From a virus: DNA of 26,922 nt. Position numbers and translations under genes: made by a program. Under the pieces are notes generated by a model. It did not search any database, was not told where the DNA came from, and saw only the letters and a program-made list of their open reading frames with translations. Positions 4,399 through 26,922 of this stretch are shown one piece after another. The stretch covers positions 1 through 26,922 of the IMG/VR virus record IMGVR_UViG_3300025082_000057. One strand, 5' to 3'. Each line of letters begins with the position of its first letter. Position 1 is the stretch's first letter.

Positions 4399-7300
4399 AT
4401 GGCCGGTGTCCCTCCCATCGAGCAAGAGGAACTTGGCGACAGCTTTGATCCAAAGTCTGTTCCGGCGCCGACGCCGCGCCCGGCTCGCTTTGAGGACTTG
4501 CTGCTCAATCCGAACCTGTCTCCGCGAATGCGACCCGTTCCGCAATCTACGATCTCTATTCGCGATCCCGAATTTAATCCGGTCCTGGCATTCAAAGCGG
4601 CGCTCCACCAGAACAATATGTTCTCGTCGGCCATTCGGGATTTCGCTTTCTCGAAAGCCATTGAGAATGCAGAGCAAACCCGCGTAGGCCCGCCGGTCGA
4701 TCCCTGGCAAGTTAGCCAATATGCCAATGCGTATCCGGTCGTATATGCCGGGCTGACATCGCTTACTGCCATCCAGATCGCCGACAGGCAGATCGAGGGC
4801 GAGCTGCTTGATGCGGAGATTATCGCGTCGAACGGCTGGGCGGCGGCTCTCGGCATGGTCGGCGCCGCCTTCGTCGATCCCCTGCAATTCCTGTTTCCCC
4901 TTGGCCGACTGAAAACCGGCATTGGCTTTCTGCAAGGCGCCTCACGCGCGGCGCTCCCCGCTTTCACCTCAAACATCATCGATGAGATCATCATCTCAGG
5001 AGGACAGGTGACGCGCCCGCTGGACGAATCCGCGCTGAATGTCCTGATGGCCGGCGGTATCGTCGGTATCTTTGGTGGCGCAGCGGGGCATTTCGGCCAC
5101 GATTACACCAATCGCCTTGTCCTGAAGCACATGAAGAACATGGAGGAATTTCAGGCCAACGGTGGCCCGAAAGGATACAAGGAAGCCCCGACCGGCCGAA
5201 ATGTCGTGAAAGTCGATGACGATGCCGATTTTTTTGATGAAACCCGGCCCCGGTTCAAAAGTGCTGGCGCTGCCGCGGTAGACGAGAATATGGCGGCAAA
5301 GACCGATCAGGAAATCCGTGACGGCGAAGGGCTTGCCTCGGCGTTTGGCCTCGAAAAGCTGCCCGATATTCCTTACAAGCGCCTGATGTATTCTCCCCTC
5401 ATCATAACGAGGGAGTTCACATCAATGCTGGTGGAATCCCCCGGCACCCTCCAAAAGAAAAACTTCGCGCTTGAGGCAACGCCTCATGCCGTCGAGACAT
5501 TAATCGCGCCCTGGAACTTCAAGCTTTTTGATGGGCTGCGAAAGATCAATGAACTATATGCCGAGTATCGCGATCTGAAATTGGGCGCCAGCACCAGTTC
5601 TCAAATTCTCGGCCTCGCTAAACTCGCGGCCAAAGATTTGGTCGGAGGACGTGACGGCAAATTGTCACCCAGCGAATTTCGCCAAGAAATTTCACGGGCG
5701 CTTGGCGACAAGGAGCAGCACGAAAATCCGTTTGTCCAGAAGGGGGCGGTTGAGATGCGCCTGGTGCTCAACGAACTGCGCGATCAGGGAATTGAACACG
5801 ACATCTTTACGGCGGCGCAACGATCCAAATCAGCCGCCAAGTCCAAGGCACTTGTCATTGATGAGGCCGCGTACAAAAAAACGGTCGATGAAATCATCGT
5901 CCTGCAAAAAACATTGCGGCAAAAAGAGATCAAGGCCACAGCCACGCACGGTCCCCGCTCTGACGATAATGCCCAAGGTTGGGCTGGTGTCGACAAGCTG
6001 GCTAAACGCATCAAGAAAATGCGCGCTCGCGCTTCTCAGATGAAAAAGAATATCCGTTCTACAAAGACATCGATCCAATCGCTTCAAGATGAAATCAAAG
6101 CCATCCGTGAAGAAGGCCCGACTGTCTTTGATGACGAAGGCTATTTTCCGCGCATCTGGCGTATTGATAAGATCGAAGCCAACATGGATGTCTACCGCAG
6201 GGTCATTGGTGATTGGCTGACAAGCAAAGGCGTTCCGGCGAAGGAACTCGAAAATGAACTCGCACGTTTTCTTGAGCTCATCCGCCGCGATCACAATTAC
6301 ATCAAGCCGATAGATCACGATCCCGGCATCGCTCGCTCGGCTCGCGCTCGCGTGGTCGATCTTCCCAATAGTGCGGTATGGGAACTTATCGAAACCGATA
6401 TTGATGCGATCATGCGGAGCCACGTTCGATCTTTTGCCACCGATCTTGAGTTGGTCAAGAAGTTCGGCACAGTCGATCTATTTGAGCAGACTGAATTGAT
6501 CCGTGCAGGCTGGGCGGAAAAGATAGCGGAGGCGCCGGCCAAAGATCGCCCGGCCCTGGCGAAGAAAGCAAAGAAGGAAATCGACGATTGGCTCGCGATG
6601 CGCGACAGGCTTCGTGGAACATATGGCCTTCCCGAGGACCCGTATCGTTTGCAATCCCGGTTCTACCGGGTGATGAAGCAATGGAATTATCTGACGTTCC
6701 TGGGCGGGGTGGTGCTTTCAGCGTTGCCCGATGCCGCGCGCCCGATAATGACCGAAGGTTTGGAACGGACATTCGGAACGTCCTATGCCCTCCTCAAAGC
6801 TAGCCCGGAGTTCCGGCGTCTTGTTGCCAAGGAAAATAATATGTCGGGTGTTGCGCTCGATATGATTATGAACACTCGCGCAATGCAGATGGCCGATATG
6901 GGCGATGTTTTTGGCCGGCAGAGCGGCCTTGAAAGAACCCTTCATGCCACCGCCGAAGCGTTCTCAATGTTCAATCTCCTCAATCCCTGGAACACATTTG
7001 TTAAGGAATGGGCCGGTGCTATTGTCGCCTCCCGAATATTCGAAGCGGCTGATCTCTTTATTGACTTTGCACTTGTGAAGGGTAAAAAAATTCCCTTTGA
7101 TTTTGTTAAACTTGCTCGCAGCGGTATAGATAAGCCGATGGCAAAACGAATAATGAAGGAATTTTATCTTCACGGTGATATCGCTTTTCTTGACGGAAAG
7201 ATGATGAGCGATTTGCTCGAAGGTTTGAGCGGTAAAGAACGACAGGCGGCTGTCAAAAAAGCTATAGCACGGGCGCGAAAACAAGGCGCGGCATTCCTCG

Positions 7301-7941
7301 CCAACACCGATGCCTGGACCGACCTCGATGCCATCACCGCATTCCGCGCCGCGATCAAACAGGACGTCGATAAAACCATCGTTACGCCCGGCGCCGCTGA
7401 CCGGCCTCTCTGGATGTCAACCGAGATGGGCTCGGTTATTGGTCAGTTCAAAGGCTTTGCCGTTGCCTCCGCGCAGCGCGTCTTGCTGTCGGCCCTTCAA
7501 GAGAAGCAAGCTTATAATATTCATGGCTTCGCGATGATGGTTGCCATGGGCATTGTCGTGAACGAACTGAAAAACAATCTCTCTGGATATGATTCCGGTC
7601 CGGAAAGCACGGCACAGACGATCCTGGGCGGGATTGATCGGTCTGGTGTTCTCGGCTACTTCAATGATATTGATCGTGCCATTGAGGCGCTGACGGGCGG
7701 CGGTCTGAGCGTGAACGGCGCCTTGGGCGGCAGGCGCGGCGAACAGCCGGCCAGACATGTAGCGGGATCGCTTCTCGGGCCGAGCGCTTCAAAGCTTTTG
7801 GACATTCGGCGATTGCTCGCGGATGGATCACAGGGAACATTCGATGAGGGAACTGCCGGCGCCGCGATCCGTATTATTCCGTTCCAGTCGCATTTTGCGC
7901 TGACCGCCCTTTTTGACAAAGCGCAACAGCAGTTCCGATAG
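4399..7941 (+). CDS. Large internal virion protein D-like (T7 gp16-like) ejection protein
   Basis: This 1180-residue protein is the longest in the window. Two hydrophobic glycine/alanine-rich segments lie near residues 148-170 and 213-235. A long charged coiled coil lies near 495-570, followed by the DDEGYFPRIW motif that I recognise from large podoviral virion proteins. The C-terminal region contains GQFKGFAVASAQRVLLSALQ, close to the 'QFk.Fa.as..R.l' element common near the C-terminus of gp16-type proteins. I see no convincing N-terminal lytic transglycosylase Glu motif, unlike T7 gp16. The wall-opening activity may therefore lie elsewhere, for example in the endolysin at 11530-12009. The gene abuts the previous stop with no gap and is followed after 9 bases by the tail fibre gene. 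Assignment to ejection proteins is inferred from size, motifs and order. Confidence 0.6.
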   Translation: MAGVPPIEQEELGDSFDPKSVPAPTPRPARFEDLLLNPNLSPRMRPVPQSTISIRDPEFNPVLAFKAALHQNNMFSSAIRDFAFSKAIENAEQTRVGPPVDPWQVSQYANAYPVVYAGLTSLTAIQIADRQIEGELLDAEIIASNGWAAALGMVGAAFVDPLQFLFPLGRLKTGIGFLQGASRAALPAFTSNIIDEIIISGGQVTRPLDESALNVLMAGGIVGIFGGAAGHFGHDYTNRLVLKHMKNMEEFQANGGPKGYKEAPTGRNVVKVDDDADFFDETRPRFKSAGAAAVDENMAAKTDQEIRDGEGLASAFGLEKLPDIPYKRLMYSPLIITREFTSMLVESPGTLQKKNFALEATPHAVETLIAPWNFKLFDGLRKINELYAEYRDLKLGASTSSQILGLAKLAAKDLVGGRDGKLSPSEFRQEISRALGDKEQHENPFVQKGAVEMRLVLNELRDQGIEHDIFTAAQRSKSAAKSKALVIDEAAYKKTVDEIIVLQKTLRQKEIKATATHGPRSDDNAQGWAGVDKLAKRIKKMRARASQMKKNIRSTKTSIQSLQDEIKAIREEGPTVFDDEGYFPRIWRIDKIEANMDVYRRVIGDWLTSKGVPAKELENELARFLELIRRDHNYIKPIDHDPGIARSARARVVDLPNSAVWELIETDIDAIMRSHVRSFATDLELVKKFGTVDLFEQTELIRAGWAEKIAEAPAKDRPALAKKAKKEIDDWLAMRDRLRGTYGLPEDPYRLQSRFYRVMKQWNYLTFLGGVVLSALPDAARPIMTEGLERTFGTSYALLKASPEFRRLVAKENNMSGVALDMIMNTRAMQMADMGDVFGRQSGLERTLHATAEAFSMFNLLNPWNTFVKEWAGAIVASRIFEAADLFIDFALVKGKKIPFDFVKLARSGIDKPMAKRIMKEFYLHGDIAFLDGKMMSDLLEGLSGKERQAAVKKAIARARKQGAAFLANTDAWTDLDAITAFRAAIKQDVDKTIVTPGAADRPLWMSTEMGSVIGQFKGFAVASAQRVLLSALQEKQAYNIHGFAMMVAMGIVVNELKNNLSGYDSGPESTAQTILGGIDRSGVLGYFNDIDRAIEALTGGGLSVNGALGGRRGEQPARHVAGSLLGPSASKLLDIRRLLADGSQGTFDEGTAGAAIRIIPFQSHFALTALFDKAQQQFR

Positions 7942-7950
7942 GAGAACGAC

Positions 7951-9606
7951 ATGCCAATCACCATTTCCGACAACACTCCCCGCGTCGTCGATGTCGTCGG
8001 CGGCACCCCGCAAACCGTTTTCACTGTCGGTTTTGAATGGTTCGCTGATGCCGATCTGAAAGTCTATAAAGATGGCGTACTGCAAACTCTGACGACGCAT
8101 TACACATGCACAGGCGCGGGCGTATCTGGCGGCGGCACCGTCGATTTCGTAAGCGCGGTCAGCAATGCCACCGTCACGATTATACGGGATATGGCGATTG
8201 CCAGAACCAGCGATTTTCCGATTTCGGGCACGTTCAAGATTGACACTCTCAATAACGATCTCGATAAGATCACCGCCATGATGCAGCAGCTTGAGCGCGA
8301 TATCCAAGCCCTCATGTTCAAAGCCGATCCGTTTGATACCGTGAACGATTGGAGTATGCCGCTTAAAGCGGCGCGGCTCGGCGCTATCTTTGGCTTCGAT
8401 TCCACGAACGGCGATCCCGAGATGGTGGCGGTATCCGGCTTTGGCGCATTGCCGGCGCCGGGAACACTCGCCGCCTTGGATATGGTCCGCGTCAATGCCG
8501 CCACGGATGCCTATGAAGCGCAGACAGCAACGGAAGTGGCTGCATCGGTTGCCGCCGTTTTTGCCAATGACGCGATCTCCGGTGACAAGGTTGAAGGCGG
8601 AACCATTGGTTCGATTACGATCCAGAACCCTCAGATCACCCAGATTCAGTTGGGTCACGCAAGCGACACGACCATCGCTCGCCATTCGTCTGGTGTGGTT
8701 ACTATCGAAGGGGCCGTTATCTACAGAGTGGGCGGCCAGACCGTTTCTGTGGCTGACGGTGGCACGGGTACCTCGTCGATGGTTGACGGCGCGATTCTTC
8801 TCGGAAATGGCGCCGGCGCCATCGCCAGCATGTCAGTTTTGGGGGACGGTGAAATCCCGGTCGGCGACGGCGCGGCTGATCCGGTGGCTTTGGCGGCATT
8901 CACCAGTTCGACCGGTACCCTCAAACACGAATCCGGTGGCATTGAGTTCGATGCCTCTGCCGTGGCGGATGGCGATTTTATCGTCGGTACCGGCGCCGGC
9001 TCAATGGGCCTTGAGAGCGGCGCGACGGCGCGGACAACGATGGGCGTTGGCACGGGGGATAATGTCCAATTTACCAACATCACAGCAACCGGCGCCTTCA
9101 CCTCGCTCGGCATCGATGACAATGCGACCAGCAATGCCATCACGATTTCTTCGGATGAGGAAGTCACGATGCCGTCGCAGCCTTCATTTCGTGTCACCCT
9201 CGCGGCACAGGCGGCTAATGTGACGGGTAACGGGACTGTCTACACTGTGGTCTGGAACACCGAGACTTGGGACATCGGTGGCAATTTCAACAATAGTACT
9301 GGTGTATTCACTGCTCCGATTACTGGAAAATATTTTTTCACAACGCACTGCTACATGTCTGGTGCCGGATCAGCGCCAACATACGGCGACATTCAATTCG
9401 TTACTTCCAATCGAACCCACACCCACAGGATGTGGGATGTGGGCAACAGTGGTGGCCCCGGAGGAATGACTTTTTCAATACTCGCCGACCTGGATGCGAG
9501 CGACACCTGTTATGTTACTGTAGCGGTCGGTGGCATCGGTGCCGACACCATTGACATTGAGGGTGGCGACACGCTCTCGTGGTTCTCGGGCAGCCTACAA
9601 CATTAA
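7951..9606 (+). CDS. Tail fibre protein: T7-fibre-like N-terminus, C1q-like C-terminal head
   Basis: This is a 551-residue protein. Residues 1-130 match the layout of the T7 tail fibre N-terminal domain that anchors the fibre to the tail: a 'FTVGFEWFADADLKVYKDG' strand pair, a TVTIIRDM strand, and FKIDTLNNDLDKI followed by a short coiled coil. The middle (about 255-400) carries degenerate glycine-rich repeats such as GGTGTSSMVDGAILLGNG, typical of trimeric fibre shafts. Residues about 411-551 look like a C1q/TNF-like jelly roll, with the hallmark segment FNNSTGVFTAPITGKYFF, later aromatic strands and the C-terminal GGDTLSWFSGSL. That domain is the likely receptor-binding head. The Shine-Dalgarno AGGAGA sits just before the ATG. 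The fibre follows the internal virion genes, as in T7-like and other podophages. The head-domain call is strong by motif, while the ligand is unknown. Confidence 0.8.
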   Translation: MPITISDNTPRVVDVVGGTPQTVFTVGFEWFADADLKVYKDGVLQTLTTHYTCTGAGVSGGGTVDFVSAVSNATVTIIRDMAIARTSDFPISGTFKIDTLNNDLDKITAMMQQLERDIQALMFKADPFDTVNDWSMPLKAARLGAIFGFDSTNGDPEMVAVSGFGALPAPGTLAALDMVRVNAATDAYEAQTATEVAASVAAVFANDAISGDKVEGGTIGSITIQNPQITQIQLGHASDTTIARHSSGVVTIEGAVIYRVGGQTVSVADGGTGTSSMVDGAILLGNGAGAIASMSVLGDGEIPVGDGAADPVALAAFTSSTGTLKHESGGIEFDASAVADGDFIVGTGAGSMGLESGATARTTMGVGTGDNVQFTNITATGAFTSLGIDDNATSNAITISSDEEVTMPSQPSFRVTLAAQAANVTGNGTVYTVVWNTETWDIGGNFNNSTGVFTAPITGKYFFTTHCYMSGAGSAPTYGDIQFVTSNRTHTHRMWDVGNSGGPGGMTFSILADLDASDTCYVTVAVGGIGADTIDIEGGDTLSWFSGSLQH

Positions 9607-18137: not shown

Positions 18138-18410
18138 TCAGCGGTCGACCGAGATAATATATCCGGCGGCTTTGACAGCCGATTCGATTTCGTCGAGCGG
18201 CCCGTCGATCAAGGCATCGACCTTATCGCTGTGAATGTTGATAGCCCCCATCTCCCCGCAATTAGGACATTGCATTTCGTCGCCCTTTTCGGGCATGGCT
18301 TTTTGATCCTTCTCGTTCAAACTGATTTGGATCGTGATCTCCTGAAATATGTTCTGTTCCGGCAAGCGTTCCGTTCCATTGATCCAGACAGGGATTTTTT
18401 GGATGCTCAT
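18138..18410 (-). CDS. Small protein with a CPNCGE knuckle
   Basis: This is a 90-residue protein. The first 40 residues form a strand-rich part (IPVWINGTERLPEQNIFQEI). A MQCPNCGE knuckle at about 46-53 follows, then an acidic helix (ALIDGPLDEIESAVKAAGY). Only one CxxC is present, so metal binding would need a second pair, perhaps in a dimer. The DNA encoding the knuckle is identical over 22 bases to the start of the gene at 22368-22643. The stop of the nuclease gene encoded downstream lies elsewhere; this start overlaps the end of the nuclease frame by four bases. Confidence 0.6.
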   Translation of the reverse strand: MSIQKIPVWINGTERLPEQNIFQEITIQISLNEKDQKAMPEKGDEMQCPNCGEMGAINIHSDKVDALIDGPLDEIESAVKAAGYIISVDR

Positions 18411-19489
18411 TGCTTTTCCTTATTTTGTGTCGATTTAGTCGGGATTGACATCGCGTTTTTGCTGGGATCGGCCGGAAGCGTTTCTTCGATGACTTTATCC
18501 GGCATCGCTGCTTTTTTCGCCGCCACTTCAATGTCGATCAGTTGATTGCAGTAGTAAGCGACATCGCAATAGTCGTTGCAGCGGCGATTCTCGCCGAGCC
18601 TGACATCGACCGAATAGGGAGGCGGCAGGATCATATTTGCCGGTGCAATACTTTCAGGGTCATCGCCAGGGATCAGCCAGCCTTTATCGAGGGCGTGTTT
18701 TTTCAACTCCTCGAGATTTTCGGCGACCTTGATGGCCGATTTGCGGCCTTCTTTCATCAGCGCGAACTTGGTCGACGACGCCCACCGTTCATCGTCGCTG
18801 CACGGCGCCAGCTTTTGGATGTGCTTGTTCTCGACGCACAGCCGAGCAGCTTGATGCAGCGTGACGCGCTCCTGAACGAATTTCTGTTGATCAGGAAATC
18901 CCCATCGTGTGACCGGGATTATCCCGACCTGATTTTTGGGATATGTTTCGTCGCCGCTCTTGGCGCGCCGACCGGCTTCCGGCTTCGACCAGTCGCGGAA
19001 GATGGCGACGATTTCCAGCCGATCAATCGGCGGATAGGTCTTGGCCTCGTCATGGCTCATCGTGAACAGCCAATCTAGCATATTCAACTGCTGTGTTTTT
19101 TCCTCGCGCAGGCCGAAGATCACTTCCCAGATGGACATCTGCTTGTAATCTTGCAGCACCCATTTTTCGTCCTCGTCTTGCGCTAGGCAGATCGAATCGA
19201 AGGTGCCGCCGATGAGCCAACCGTCGACCTCCGCATAGAGCCGTTTTTCAGTGATGCCGGTGATATTGGCGCGCTCCAAGACGACATGCATGGCCTTGCC
19301 CATAAGGGCATAGATGCGGTCGGAGATGTCCTCGACCAGCTCTTCCTTGAAATACCGGCGCAAAGCGACCTGTTGCGGTGGCGAAATCAACTGTGTTACC
19401 GTGATATCGGATTCGCCGGCGTCGTAGGGATCGTTTTTCACCGCCTCGCAGACGGCCTCGGGTAGATGAAGATTATTCGTGAATTTCAC
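18407..19489 (-). CDS. PD-(D/E)XK nuclease with probable Fe-S cysteines (Cas4/AddB-like exonuclease)
   Basis: This is a 360-residue protein. GKAMHVVLE (His68) is the conserved helix of the family. GGTFDSI gives Asp98, VLQDYK gives Asp114 and Lys116, and the following QQLNML gives the QxxxY-like helix. These are the catalytic elements of the PD-(D/E)XK phosphodiesterase fold. Cys230 and the C-terminal cluster Cys304, Cys308, Cys314 could hold a 4Fe-4S cluster, as in Cas4 and AddB nucleases. It probably resects double-strand ends to make single-stranded DNA for the Rad52-like protein. The last 40 residues are a polar Pro/Ser/Lys tail. The start is GTG at 19489, overlapping the preceding stop (GTGA). 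Confidence 0.8.
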   Translation of the reverse strand: MKFTNNLHLPEAVCEAVKNDPYDAGESDITVTQLISPPQQVALRRYFKEELVEDISDRIYALMGKAMHVVLERANITGITEKRLYAEVDGWLIGGTFDSICLAQDEDEKWVLQDYKQMSIWEVIFGLREEKTQQLNMLDWLFTMSHDEAKTYPPIDRLEIVAIFRDWSKPEAGRRAKSGDETYPKNQVGIIPVTRWGFPDQQKFVQERVTLHQAARLCVENKHIQKLAPCSDDERWASSTKFALMKEGRKSAIKVAENLEELKKHALDKGWLIPGDDPESIAPANMILPPPYSVDVRLGENRRCNDYCDVAYYCNQLIDIEVAAKKAAMPDKVIEETLPADPSKNAMSIPTKSTQNKEKQ

Positions 19490-19882: not shown

Positions 19883-20188
19883 TCACTTGGGGCGTCGGCG
19901 AGCAAGGACGGCCTCAGTGAGATTAGAGCGTCGTTCTTGAGCATTGCTTGTGCCCGAAGCTCCGGTCCCACCAGATCGAGGAGTTTGGAACTCGACTGCC
20001 TTGAGAAGCCAATTTCGCCATGCTTGATCCCATCGGACGAATTTCTTGGCGTTGGCTCGGTAGTAGGCGCAAAATTTGTCCGTCTCATTATCGAGGTCAA
20101 GTCCCCCAACTTTTTCATTGGCCCAAGTCCTCATTTCGTCGGTGATGCCAAAATCGTCTGGTATTTCGTGAGCGCATTTTTTGGTCAT
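19883..20188 (-). CDS. DnaT/O-like replication protein, C-terminal module only
   Basis: This is a 101-residue protein. GITDEMRTWANEK, then ETDKFCAYYRANAKKFVRWDQAWRNWLLKAV match the common C-terminal element of phage replication initiators and DnaT-like proteins ('e.ekFr.yw.a......dWd.tWrnWi'). That element binds single-stranded DNA or the loader. The N-terminal winged helix usual in such proteins is missing here. It may be supplied separately by the winged-helix protein at 20604-20909. The ATG overlaps the RusA stop (ATGA). The tail is basic (VLARRRPK). Confidence 0.65.
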   Translation of the reverse strand: MTKKCAHEIPDDFGITDEMRTWANEKVGGLDLDNETDKFCAYYRANAKKFVRWDQAWRNWLLKAVEFQTPRSGGTGASGTSNAQERRSNLTEAVLARRRPK

Positions 20189-24449: not shown

Positions 24450-24710
24450 CTATTTCTTGCCGGCGAGCGCCCGCAAGATCAGGTCGCCGTGGCACATCTG
24501 CGGCGAACACCAGCAGACCAAGCTCTTGCCGACTAGCGGTGCCAGGTCGAGCCGTGGCAGAACGTGCTTCGCAAATTTGCGCAATACATCCTTGCGCGAG
24601 CCATGCTCGCCAATGACGTAAGGGTTTCCCCATTTCGAGCCACGCCCGATATAAATCGCGTCATCAGGGATATGGTGAAATTGGCTTCTCAAGTTAAATA
24701 CTCGTGGCAT
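24450..24710 (-). CDS. DUF4326 protein
   Basis: This is an 86-residue protein. DDAIYIGRGSKWGNPYVIGE, SRKDVLRKFAKHVLP and the C-terminal LVGKSLVCWCSPQMCHGDLI carry the full DUF4326 signature ('yiGRgs.wGNPy.ig..gsr...i..y...l........l.GK.L.CwC.P..CHgdvL'). The conserved Cys and His residues at the end suggest metal or nucleotide chemistry, but no activity is established to my knowledge. It is common in phages. The ATG at 24710 (with GGAAAG upstream) shares a base with the stop of the preceding ORF. A truncated second copy of its C-terminus lies at 25116-25154. Confidence 0.85.
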   Translation of the reverse strand: MPRVFNLRSQFHHIPDDAIYIGRGSKWGNPYVIGEHGSRKDVLRKFAKHVLPRLDLAPLVGKSLVCWCSPQMCHGDLILRALAGKK

Positions 24711-24823
24711 CAAAACTTTCCTTTCAGTCGGTTGAGAAACCTCGGGATCGCCCCGATCAAGGTCGGGAGCGAGACGATCCAGAGCATGAACGCTATCGCG
24801 AGGCAGACCCCTAGTGCTACCAT
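24710..24823 (-). CDS. Very small membrane protein (37 residues)
   Basis: This frame begins MVALGVCLAIAFMLWIVSLP and ends with basic residues (RFLNRLKGKF). One span is predicted over residues 2-27. The start overlaps the previous gene by 7 bases and the TGA shares a base with the DUF4326 ATG (TGATG), so it is embedded in a coupled set. Confidence 0.6.
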   Translation of the reverse strand: MVALGVCLAIAFMLWIVSLPTLIGAIPRFLNRLKGKF

Positions 24824-25062
24824 GTACGACGCCCGCCGAAGGTCGGCATTCTCCATGCTTCCGAGCGGAAAGCGGGATGGTTAGCCAGCGACCATTTCAT
24901 CAAAGGGAACGCCTCGTTTCTATACCAGTTCCACATTTTGCGGCCGGCGTGCTTTGAAACCGTCGCGATCAAGAGCGACAACACGATGATAATCGCCCAG
25001 AACACGACGGCGAGGGGCAGGGTAACGGTCACAAGAATCGCGAAGTAAAGCAGTCCAGACAT
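24817..25062 (-). CDS. Small membrane protein (81 residues)
   Basis: The ATG at 25062 has GAAGGAGACTGAAA upstream. Residues 3-35 are a long hydrophobic stretch (LLYFAILVTVTLPLAVVFWA and on), either one extended span or a tight hairpin. A basic helix (KHAGRKMWNWYRNEAF) and a polar end with WRMPTFGG follow. Function is unknown. Position at the front of the early block suggests a host-envelope or superinfection role. Confidence 0.65.
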   Translation of the reverse strand: MSGLLYFAILVTVTLPLAVVFWAIIIVLSLLIATVSKHAGRKMWNWYRNEAFPLMKWSLANHPAFRSEAWRMPTFGGRRTW

Positions 25063-25108: not shown

Positions 25109-25115
25109 CTTTATT

Positions 25116-25154
25116 TCAGTCGGCCAGTGCGGCCAAGATCAGATCGCCGTGGCA
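25116..25154 (-). pseudogene. Remnant of a second DUF4326 gene (C-terminal 12 codons)
   Basis: Leftward these bases read CHGDLILAALAD and stop, matching CHGDLILRALAGKK at the end of the intact DUF4326 gene, with the DNA core TGCCACGGCGAYCTGATCTT shared. The rest of the gene is gone. The 57-residue zinc-finger-like gene now ends four bases before it. Confidence 0.7.
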
Positions 25155-25158
25155 AGAT

Positions 25159-25332
25159 TCAAAACGGGATGTCGTCATCGATGTTCGGCAACAACAAGGG
25201 GATGATGTATGAATCGACCGTCTCCATCCCAATCGTATCACGGATGTCGTTGTCGCAAAGCAGACAGACGCTGCCCAGGTCGCGGACATCAGCCGCATTC
25301 ATAACGTCGCCACAGAATGAACAAATGGTCAT
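25159..25332 (-). CDS. 57-residue zinc-finger-like protein with an SSB-type C-terminal tip
   Basis: The ATG at 25332 follows AAAGGATTGAGCG. The N-terminus MTICSFCGDVM and the later VCLLCDND give two CxxC pairs 15 residues apart, a plausible zinc ribbon. The C-terminus is PNIDDDIPF. The last six residues equal the acidic tip of E. coli SSB, and the SSB of this phage ends DEDVPF. That tip docks proteins of replication and repair, so this product may mimic SSB to capture a host partner. It is the first gene of the leftward block. Two CxxC pairs and the tip are seen in the sequence; the function is inferred. Confidence 0.65.
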   Translation of the reverse strand: MTICSFCGDVMNAADVRDLGSVCLLCDNDIRDTIGMETVDSYIIPLLLPNIDDDIPF

Positions 25333-25455
25333 CGCTCAATCCTTTCAAGGAAGTTTCAGGGAAGTGGGTGGGTGTGTCTTGGTAAGGGAACGACTAGGAA
25401 ATCGCCTCAAGCCCGCTCAAGGGGGAAACTACGTTTAGGCCGCTGCAGCGAAGCT

Positions 25456-25543
25456 AGAAAACCTTCCGTTTCGGCCTTGCTTTGCAGATGTACTCGATGT
25501 TCAACCGGCAAGAAGAACCCGAAACGGATGTTTAGGTTTTCTT
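25456..25543. repeat. Interrupted inverted repeat
   Basis: Bases 25456-25474 (AGAAAACCTTCCGTTTCGG) match the reverse complement of 25520-25543, except that the right arm carries TGTTTA in place of a single A. The arms are separated by 45 bases. Confidence 0.8.
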
Positions 25544-25614
25544 ACTAAGCGAAGCGCGCCGACCCCTTGAACTGGCGTAAGCCCGAACTGAAAAAAGCAA
25601 CCCTACCAATAAGT

Positions 25615-25633
25615 GCGGCGAAGCCGCTCTCCT
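25615..25633 (+). repeat. 19-base direct repeat, copy 1
   Basis: GCGGCGAAGCCGCTCTCCT, identical to 25975-25993. The first 13 bases form a 5-bp stem with a GAA loop. Confidence 0.9.
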
Positions 25634-25881: not shown

Positions 25882-25974
25882 GGCTGCGAGAGTGCGCTAA
25901 TCGAAGCCGGTACGACGCACAGGCGCAGAGTGGAATCGATCATGCGACCAATTAGCTCCCGAAATTGAAAAAGC

Positions 25975-25993
25975 GCGGCGAAGCCGCTCTCCT
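25975..25993 (+). repeat. 19-base direct repeat, copy 2
   Basis: Exact partner of 25615-25633, 360 bases downstream, preceded by an A-rich stretch as copy 1 is preceded by AT-rich sequence. Confidence 0.9.
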
Positions 25994-26262: not shown

Positions 26263-26292
26263 TTGACATGATCCGACGAGATCGGCTTCTAT
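26263..26292 (+). promoter_or_regulatory. Sigma70-like promoter candidate for the terminase genes
   Basis: A perfect TTGACA at 26263-26268 is followed after 18 bases by TTCTAT, a weak -10 match. Transcription would begin near 26299 and give a leader of about 30 bases before the ATG at 26330. This also argues against the upstream ATG at 26291. Confidence 0.4.
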
Positions 26293-26329
26293 GGCTTACC
26301 CCCCTCGGTCCCTCAGCAAGGAGCAACAG

Positions 26330-26770
26330 ATGACCACGCGAAAACGGTCCAAAAGCTCCATCAAACATCCCGTTCCAGGCCTCCCCGACATCCATCTCAC
26401 ACGTAGACAGAAGAACCTCGCCGATATCTTTGTCCATGGCGTCCCAAACGAGGAAGGCGTGATGGAACGCGTGACCATAACAAAAGCAGGCCCTCTCGCA
26501 GGATATGCCCAAGGACAGAGCGGTAGAGCAGTCGCGTCAAAGACCTTGCGACTACCTCATGTCCAGGCGTACATCTTCCAACAGGTGGCTGAGAAGGTGG
26601 GTATGAGCGCGGTCGGCGCTGTCCATGCAGTGGCTCATCTGTCTGAGAGTGCGCAGTCCGAGTATGTCAGGCTCGAAGCCAGCAAGGACATTCTCGATCG
26701 CGCGGGCTTCAAAGCACCGGACAAAAAGATCATTCAGCAGGACGTAGCAATTACGATTGACCTCGGCTGA
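26330..26770 (+). CDS. terS: Terminase small subunit
   Basis: This is a 146-residue protein from ATG 26330, which has AAGGAGCAACAG directly before it; an upstream in-frame ATG at 26291 has no ribosome binding site. After a basic N-terminus (TTRKRSKSS), LTRRQKNLADIFVHG and ITKAGPLAGYAQGQSGRAVAS form the helix-turn-helix region typical of phage small terminases ('lt.kq..Fa..y...g..t.AA..AGy...sa...as.lL..p.V...i'). LRLPHVQAYIFQQVAEK follows as part of the same domain, then an oligomerisation helix (EYVRLEASKDILDRAGFKAP) and a short acidic end. It binds the packaging site and directs the large subunit, expected just beyond the window. The inverted repeats upstream are candidate targets. Confidence 0.85.
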   Translation: MTTRKRSKSSIKHPVPGLPDIHLTRRQKNLADIFVHGVPNEEGVMERVTITKAGPLAGYAQGQSGRAVASKTLRLPHVQAYIFQQVAEKVGMSAVGAVHAVAHLSESAQSEYVRLEASKDILDRAGFKAPDKKIIQQDVAITIDLG

Positions 26771-26922
26771 GCGATGGTCCGATGGGGTAAAGAGACCCCC
26801 CCCCTCCGAAAGCCGGGTTCTCCCCTACCCCATAAGGTACACCGCAGCTATAAATCTTCTGAAAGGCTCTGAGATTATTTTGAACCCGCTATTACTTTCG
26901 GTTTGTGTCGTTCTTTGCATTT
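26771..26922. other. Window end, no supported gene
   Basis: This stretch has a C-rich run and an inverted pair TGGGGTA/TACCCCA around it. No open frame with a ribosome binding site is completed. The large terminase gene is expected further on. Confidence 0.5.

Follow-up and report, generated by a model that had tools for sequence, protein, structure and literature searches.

Why does a small cysteine-rich protein at the head of a phage early block end in the same six residues as the SSB of E. coli? The DNA analysed here is a viral stretch of 26,922 nucleotides (IMG/VR record IMGVR_UViG_3300025082_000057, positions 1 to 26,922), which we call the window. We followed the C-terminal tip of this protein through ORF statistics, related phages and the surrounding sequence.

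The tipped protein and its gene

The gene comprises the following features, all encoded on the minus strand:

25159..25332, minus strand: gene of a 57-aa Cys-rich protein ending in DDDIPF, recognised by ORF reading and homologue comparison
25162..25179, minus strand: tip codons GAT GAC GAC ATC CCG TTT for DDDIPF, then TGA, recognised from the sequence and the end statistics
25255..25323, minus strand: CxxC...CxxC module with C4, C7, C23 and C26, a presumed zinc site whose Cys are invariant in alignment A1
25340..25346, minus strand: ribosome-binding site GAAAGGA, recognised from the sequence

The first-pass annotation had described a 57-residue protein with two CxxC pairs and the end DDDIPF, leaving the strand unstated. 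The ORF is real and reads on the minus strand from 25332 to 25159 as MTICSFCGDVMNAADVRDLGSVCLLCDNDIRDTIGMETVDSYIIPLLLPNIDDDIPF, with CxxC pairs at residues 4/7 and 23/26. AAAGGA lies about 8 nt ahead of the ATG, and the frame is presumably translated. The identity of the last six residues with the E. coli SSB end, also claimed there, is exact: DDDIPF, an SSB-type acidic end with I/V/L-Pro-Phe, stands at the very C-terminus and is followed by TGA.

All four Cys of the two CxxC pairs are invariant across the four sequences of alignment A1, and this four-Cys module probably binds zinc. The window protein matched no Pfam or PHROG family and no described zinc-finger family at curated cut-offs; sub-threshold matches to zinc-finger Pfam entries were obtained for its homologue in the related phage L080. 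A comparison of the window protein with the PADLOC anti-phage defence models gave no match. Structure prediction returned a mean pLDDT of 51 and no usable fold. Model confidence was lowest for residues 36-54, which presumably form a flexible linker ahead of the tip.

The early block and its neighbours

The start of the gene at 25332 adjoins a non-coding gap of about 960 bp, with the plus-strand terminase small subunit (TerS) on its far side. From 25332 the minus-strand early block runs down to about 13034, which agrees with the earlier designation of the tipped gene as the first of this block. Further features of the early block and the divergent late block are:

24817..25062, minus strand: gene 2 of the early block, a small membrane-type protein with a relative in L080 and absent from L078
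19883..20188, minus strand: C-terminal half of a replication initiation protein
18407..19489, minus strand: phage exonuclease family protein, a possible phage partner
15317..16000, minus strand: Rad52-type annealing protein, a possible phage partner
14626..15051, minus strand: phage SSB with OB-fold, ending in DEDVPF (PF00436, E=3e-37)
26291..26770, plus strand: terminase small subunit, with which the divergent late block opens; anchor to the relatives

A RusA nuclease is also encoded in the early block, whose longest minus-strand ORF measures 360 aa. The scan of early-block proteins, which included the small ORFs in part, revealed no replicative polymerase or helicase. Because the phage SSB ends in DEDVPF and the codons differ, the tip is no recent copy of the phage SSB end, in agreement with the first-pass annotation.

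The short form of the replication initiation protein (19883-20188) is also found in L078; in L084 the initiation protein has 208 aa with an N-terminal winged-helix-like part. A candidate dual-coding overlap at 19883-20118 was dropped, because the other frame explains why the ATG and first codons are conserved. For the region 26291-26922, TerS of contig L076 is identical and TerL of L079 is identical to that of L076. Judged by these sequences, L076 and L079 are other pieces of this phage or of a nearly identical one, and the window is an incomplete genome.

Directly past the stop of the tipped gene, the sequence at 25112-25154 (minus strand) matches the 3' end of the DUF4326 gene (24451-24494, minus strand; SCHGDLILAALAD) with 80% identity. 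This fragment is in another frame, lies in the +1 frame of the tipped gene, and is likely a relic of a second DUF4326 copy. An intact DUF4326-like gene is present in L186 shortly downstream of the leader RNA described below. We rejected a +1 frameshift at TTT TGA into the fragment, since the stop of the L080 gene is not followed by a comparable fragment and the tip would be buried in the frameshift product.

A conserved structured leader RNA

The non-coding gap contains a structured element ahead of the first gene:

25400..25597, minus strand: conserved structured leader RNA, recognised by fold, covariation and model matches

The leader RNA of about 195 nt was found in eight contigs, among them L080 (546-739, minus strand), L083 (4963-5157, minus strand), L084 (7222-7415, minus strand), L106 (5190-5429, plus strand) and L186 (1093-1330, plus strand). 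It consists of a closing stem (UUCAAGGGG/CCCCUUGAG), a hairpin (AAACGUAGUUU) and a long variable stem. Its fold has a z of -5.0, and both sides have changed in 18 of 48 pairs, a value reached by 0 of 500 shuffles. Model R1 scored 117-121 bits in L106, L107, L109 and L186; these matches are not independent, as L106 contributed to the model and L107, L109 and L186 closely resemble L106 in sequence. The early genes of these four contigs are otherwise different. The opposite strand scored much lower in the model search, which supports the minus strand for the leader RNA. A search against Rfam gave no match for it. The leader RNA may control or process the early transcript.

A hairpin (GCGGCTTCGCCGC) with its flanks occurs twice in the non-coding gap, at 25603-25633 and 25968-25993, with 92% identity over 26 bases; both copies are terminator-like on the minus strand.

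The tip is far more frequent than composition predicts

A set of 15,948 distinct ORFs (25 aa or longer), taken from loci not chosen for the tip, contains 37 that end in [DE][DE][IVLM]PF, compared with 0.056 expected from composition. Placed in any of the 59 other orders, these residue classes gave 0 or 1 ORF per order in this set. About 32 of the 37 carriers are SSBs, a count that is uninformative because many loci were fetched by an SSB query; the order control and the non-SSB carriers are informative. Carriers lacking an SSB-type start are the window protein, the proteins of L080, L084 and L098 discussed below, and a 316-aa protein of L043. The latter (7131-8081, minus strand) ends in LDDIPF and belongs to no Pfam or PHROG family. 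A separate count over greedily chosen ORFs was set aside, as that choice loses the tipped gene itself.

The tip recurs at the same operon position

A search of phage records and viral contigs with the window protein found no homologue. Relatives were reached only through TerS, TerL and the leader RNA pattern, and the corresponding region was examined in four related phages.

The first early gene of L080 (TerL 81% identical) encodes a homologue, MDGQCLSCGDIINAADIKEAHHNVCGSCERDFAETAADPMLSGPALAPVYGHGDDDDIPF, in which 21 of 57 aligned residues match the window protein (37%) and the last six are identical. If the 21 matches were placed at random, the probability that all of the last six match would be 0.0015. 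The tip codons are GAC GAC GAC ATC CCC TTT TAG in L080 and GAT GAC GAC ATC CCG TTT TGA in the window; the tip is thus conserved at the protein level between the two.

L078 (TerL 77% identical) encodes a 46-aa homologue, MDKVCAMCGDIRNAADTEASEHHQLCNPCLIDIEETIDPNAYACFS, with both CxxC pairs and no tip. A homologue that keeps the CxxC pairs and lacks the acidic-Pro-Phe end had been named beforehand as refuting the annotation, and this is the one case found. In L078 the stop of the homologue and the start of the next small membrane gene overlap, and the gene found after the tipped gene in the window and in L080 is missing. Gene order suggests that a single deletion could have taken the tail and the neighbouring gene of L078 together.

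In L084 (TerL 75% identical) the first gene encodes MSNCDNCKVCSDCLRDEAPTISELAEEQTRANLNAPDTDDIPF, a different 43-aa Cys protein with a DDIPF end, and the second gene is a true homologue of the window protein that has no tip. In L098 (TerL about 44%) the gene nearest to the TerS-like gene, and divergent from it, encodes a 71-aa protein without CxxC that ends in LDDEIPF. In the TerL tree (supports 98-100), L084 branches outside L078, which in turn lies outside the window, L080 and L081.

Four readable lineages (window, L080, L084 and L098) therefore have a tip on the first early gene, divergent from TerS; L078, the L106 group and L103 lack it. The L106-type phages share the leader RNA and have an untipped first gene. 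No tipped ORF was seen in L091 and L094, where the gene order differs. The recurring unit is the tip and not the pair of zinc finger and tip, and the tip is not present in every relative. The suggested check, conservation of the last six residues, thus gave a mixed picture: they are kept in L080 and missing from L078, with L084 and L098 carrying the tip on other bodies. The original interpretation is partly supported: the tip is genuine, recurs at the same operon position and differs from the end of the phage SSB, but the body varies and the L078 protein is untipped. Since three related phages also tip their first early gene, on partly unrelated bodies, the tip is probably a working docking tag and not a product of chance.

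It is improbable that the tip is a functionless accident or relic on a fast-evolving small early gene: the gene is short, diverges fast and lacks the tip in L078, and the DUF4326-like fragment directly after the stop marks a rearranged spot, but only 0.056 such ends are expected per 15,948 ORFs, L080 keeps the tip through synonymous changes, and the first early genes of L084 and L098 are tipped as well.

Small tipped proteins in other metagenomic phages

Further small tipped non-SSB proteins were seen in L131/L134, L156, L128 and L098. They resemble the window protein in their short body, SSB-type tip and, often, CxxC, but have no detectable sequence relation to it. Those fetched by the tip pattern were selected for the tip and give no statistical support; only L098 is unselected. 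Searches of phage records by tblastn with three pattern-fetched tipped proteins and the L098 protein revealed no relative.

A 60-aa CxxC ORF ending in YEEVPF is present in L131 (853-1032, plus strand) and L134 (4211-4393, minus strand), directly after a larger protein ending in KEEVPF; in L134 a 265-aa protein ending in DDIPF adjoins this pair. L156 has two tandem small Cys-rich ORFs (8750-9007 and 9049-9255, plus strand), both ending in DDDLPF, and L128 a 38-aa protein with a DDIPF end. Proteins of 91-96 aa end in EDSIPF in L059 (9206-9481, plus strand) and in EDDLPF in L177 (Methylophilales phage MEP301; 2410-2700, plus strand). The L177 protein is annotated as ssDNA-binding; the L059 protein has no annotation.

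Comparison with known systems

The window protein shares its last six residues with E. coli SSB and, like bacterial and phage SSBs (PF00436), presumably has a flexible linker. In contrast to these it has 57 residues and neither an OB-fold nor a PF00436 match, and the four-Cys module replaces the DNA-binding core. By sequence it is not an SSB, and it fits the definition of an SSB-Ct. Small zinc-ribbon or treble-clef phage proteins have a similar CxxC...CxxC spacing, and the L080 homologue gave sub-threshold zinc-finger matches; however, the window protein has no family match, and an SSB tip on such proteins was not described in the literature searched.

Lambda Orf and Red-beta type proteins are likewise phage proteins that act on the SSB-tail interaction. 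They bind SSB tails and supply the pocket, whereas the window protein carries the tip. A non-SSB phage protein with an SSB tip was not described in the open-licence literature searched, which was covered in part. A weak plasmid match (Rhodococcus, annotated CoA ligase gene) was judged irrelevant.

A proposed role in docking on SSB partners

SSB-Ct recognition requires the carboxylate of the terminal Phe and the Asp side chains, and deletion of the terminal Phe from SSB is lethal in E. coli (PMC3594151). Several SSB interactions can be blocked simultaneously by a small Pro-Phe mimetic (PMC3594151), and the SSB-Ct recruits about 20 proteins in E. coli (PMC10164576).

We propose that the window protein is a small early protein built of a four-Cys module, a flexible linker and an SSB-Ct peptide. 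The free DDDIPF end would fit into the basic, Phe-accepting pocket with which SSB-partner proteins bind SSB. Docking on any SSB-Ct pocket is, on balance, probable. Given docking, a host partner is fairly probable, since the scan of the early block revealed an initiator and no replicative polymerase or helicase. We give about an even chance to the combined reading, in which the protein mimics the SSB-Ct and docks on SSB partners, more likely those of the host. Candidate host partners would be of the RecQ, RecO, RecG, exonuclease I, PriA, primase and polymerase III chi types, which would either be competed off SSB or be redirected to phage DNA. The capture or masking of host SSB partners suggested by the first-pass annotation is plausible, and decoy and recruiter appear about equally probable. 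Against a mimic stand the untipped L078 homologue, the untipped first gene of L106-type phages, the lack of a tipped gene in L103, and the fact that the phage already encodes a tipped SSB of its own. Next to an SSB tetramer, a single tip is a weak binder; competition would therefore need high expression or oligomers.

One sub-case of the mimic reading has the Cys module bind phage DNA, RNA or the initiator, while the tip recruits host PriA, primase or polymerase III to the phage origin. It draws on the presence of a replication initiation protein in an early block with no recognised replicative polymerase, and the adjoining conserved structured leader could be the landing site. Nucleic-acid binding by the Cys module would be a supposition, however, and L098 has the tip without this module; we regard this specific form as rather unlikely.

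Unlikely, and somewhat more so, is docking on the phage's own recombination or replication machinery (the Rad52-type protein, exonuclease or initiator), where the tipped protein would act alongside the phage SSB in loading or regulation. A Rad52-type protein, an SSB and an exonuclease are encoded in the same block, Red-beta type recombinases contact SSB tails, and the unrelated phages L131 and L134 show tips clustering within one phage module. Yet the tipped gene opens the early block, several kb ahead of these genes, and the phage SSB end DEDVPF differs from the tip in two positions.

Returning to the mimic that docks on SSB partners, the SSB-Ct serves about 20 genome-maintenance proteins of E. 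coli as a shared docking peptide and is also a drug target. If the reading is true, phages would attack or borrow this hub by motif mimicry, via a natural non-SSB carrier that may serve as a tool for blocking it, and the motif would offer a handle on otherwise unannotated early genes. More tentatively, there may be a class of early phage proteins that share the SSB-Ct tip and not a fold, in which unrelated small bodies, repeatedly first in the early block, would seize or redirect the host SSB-partner network at the start of infection.
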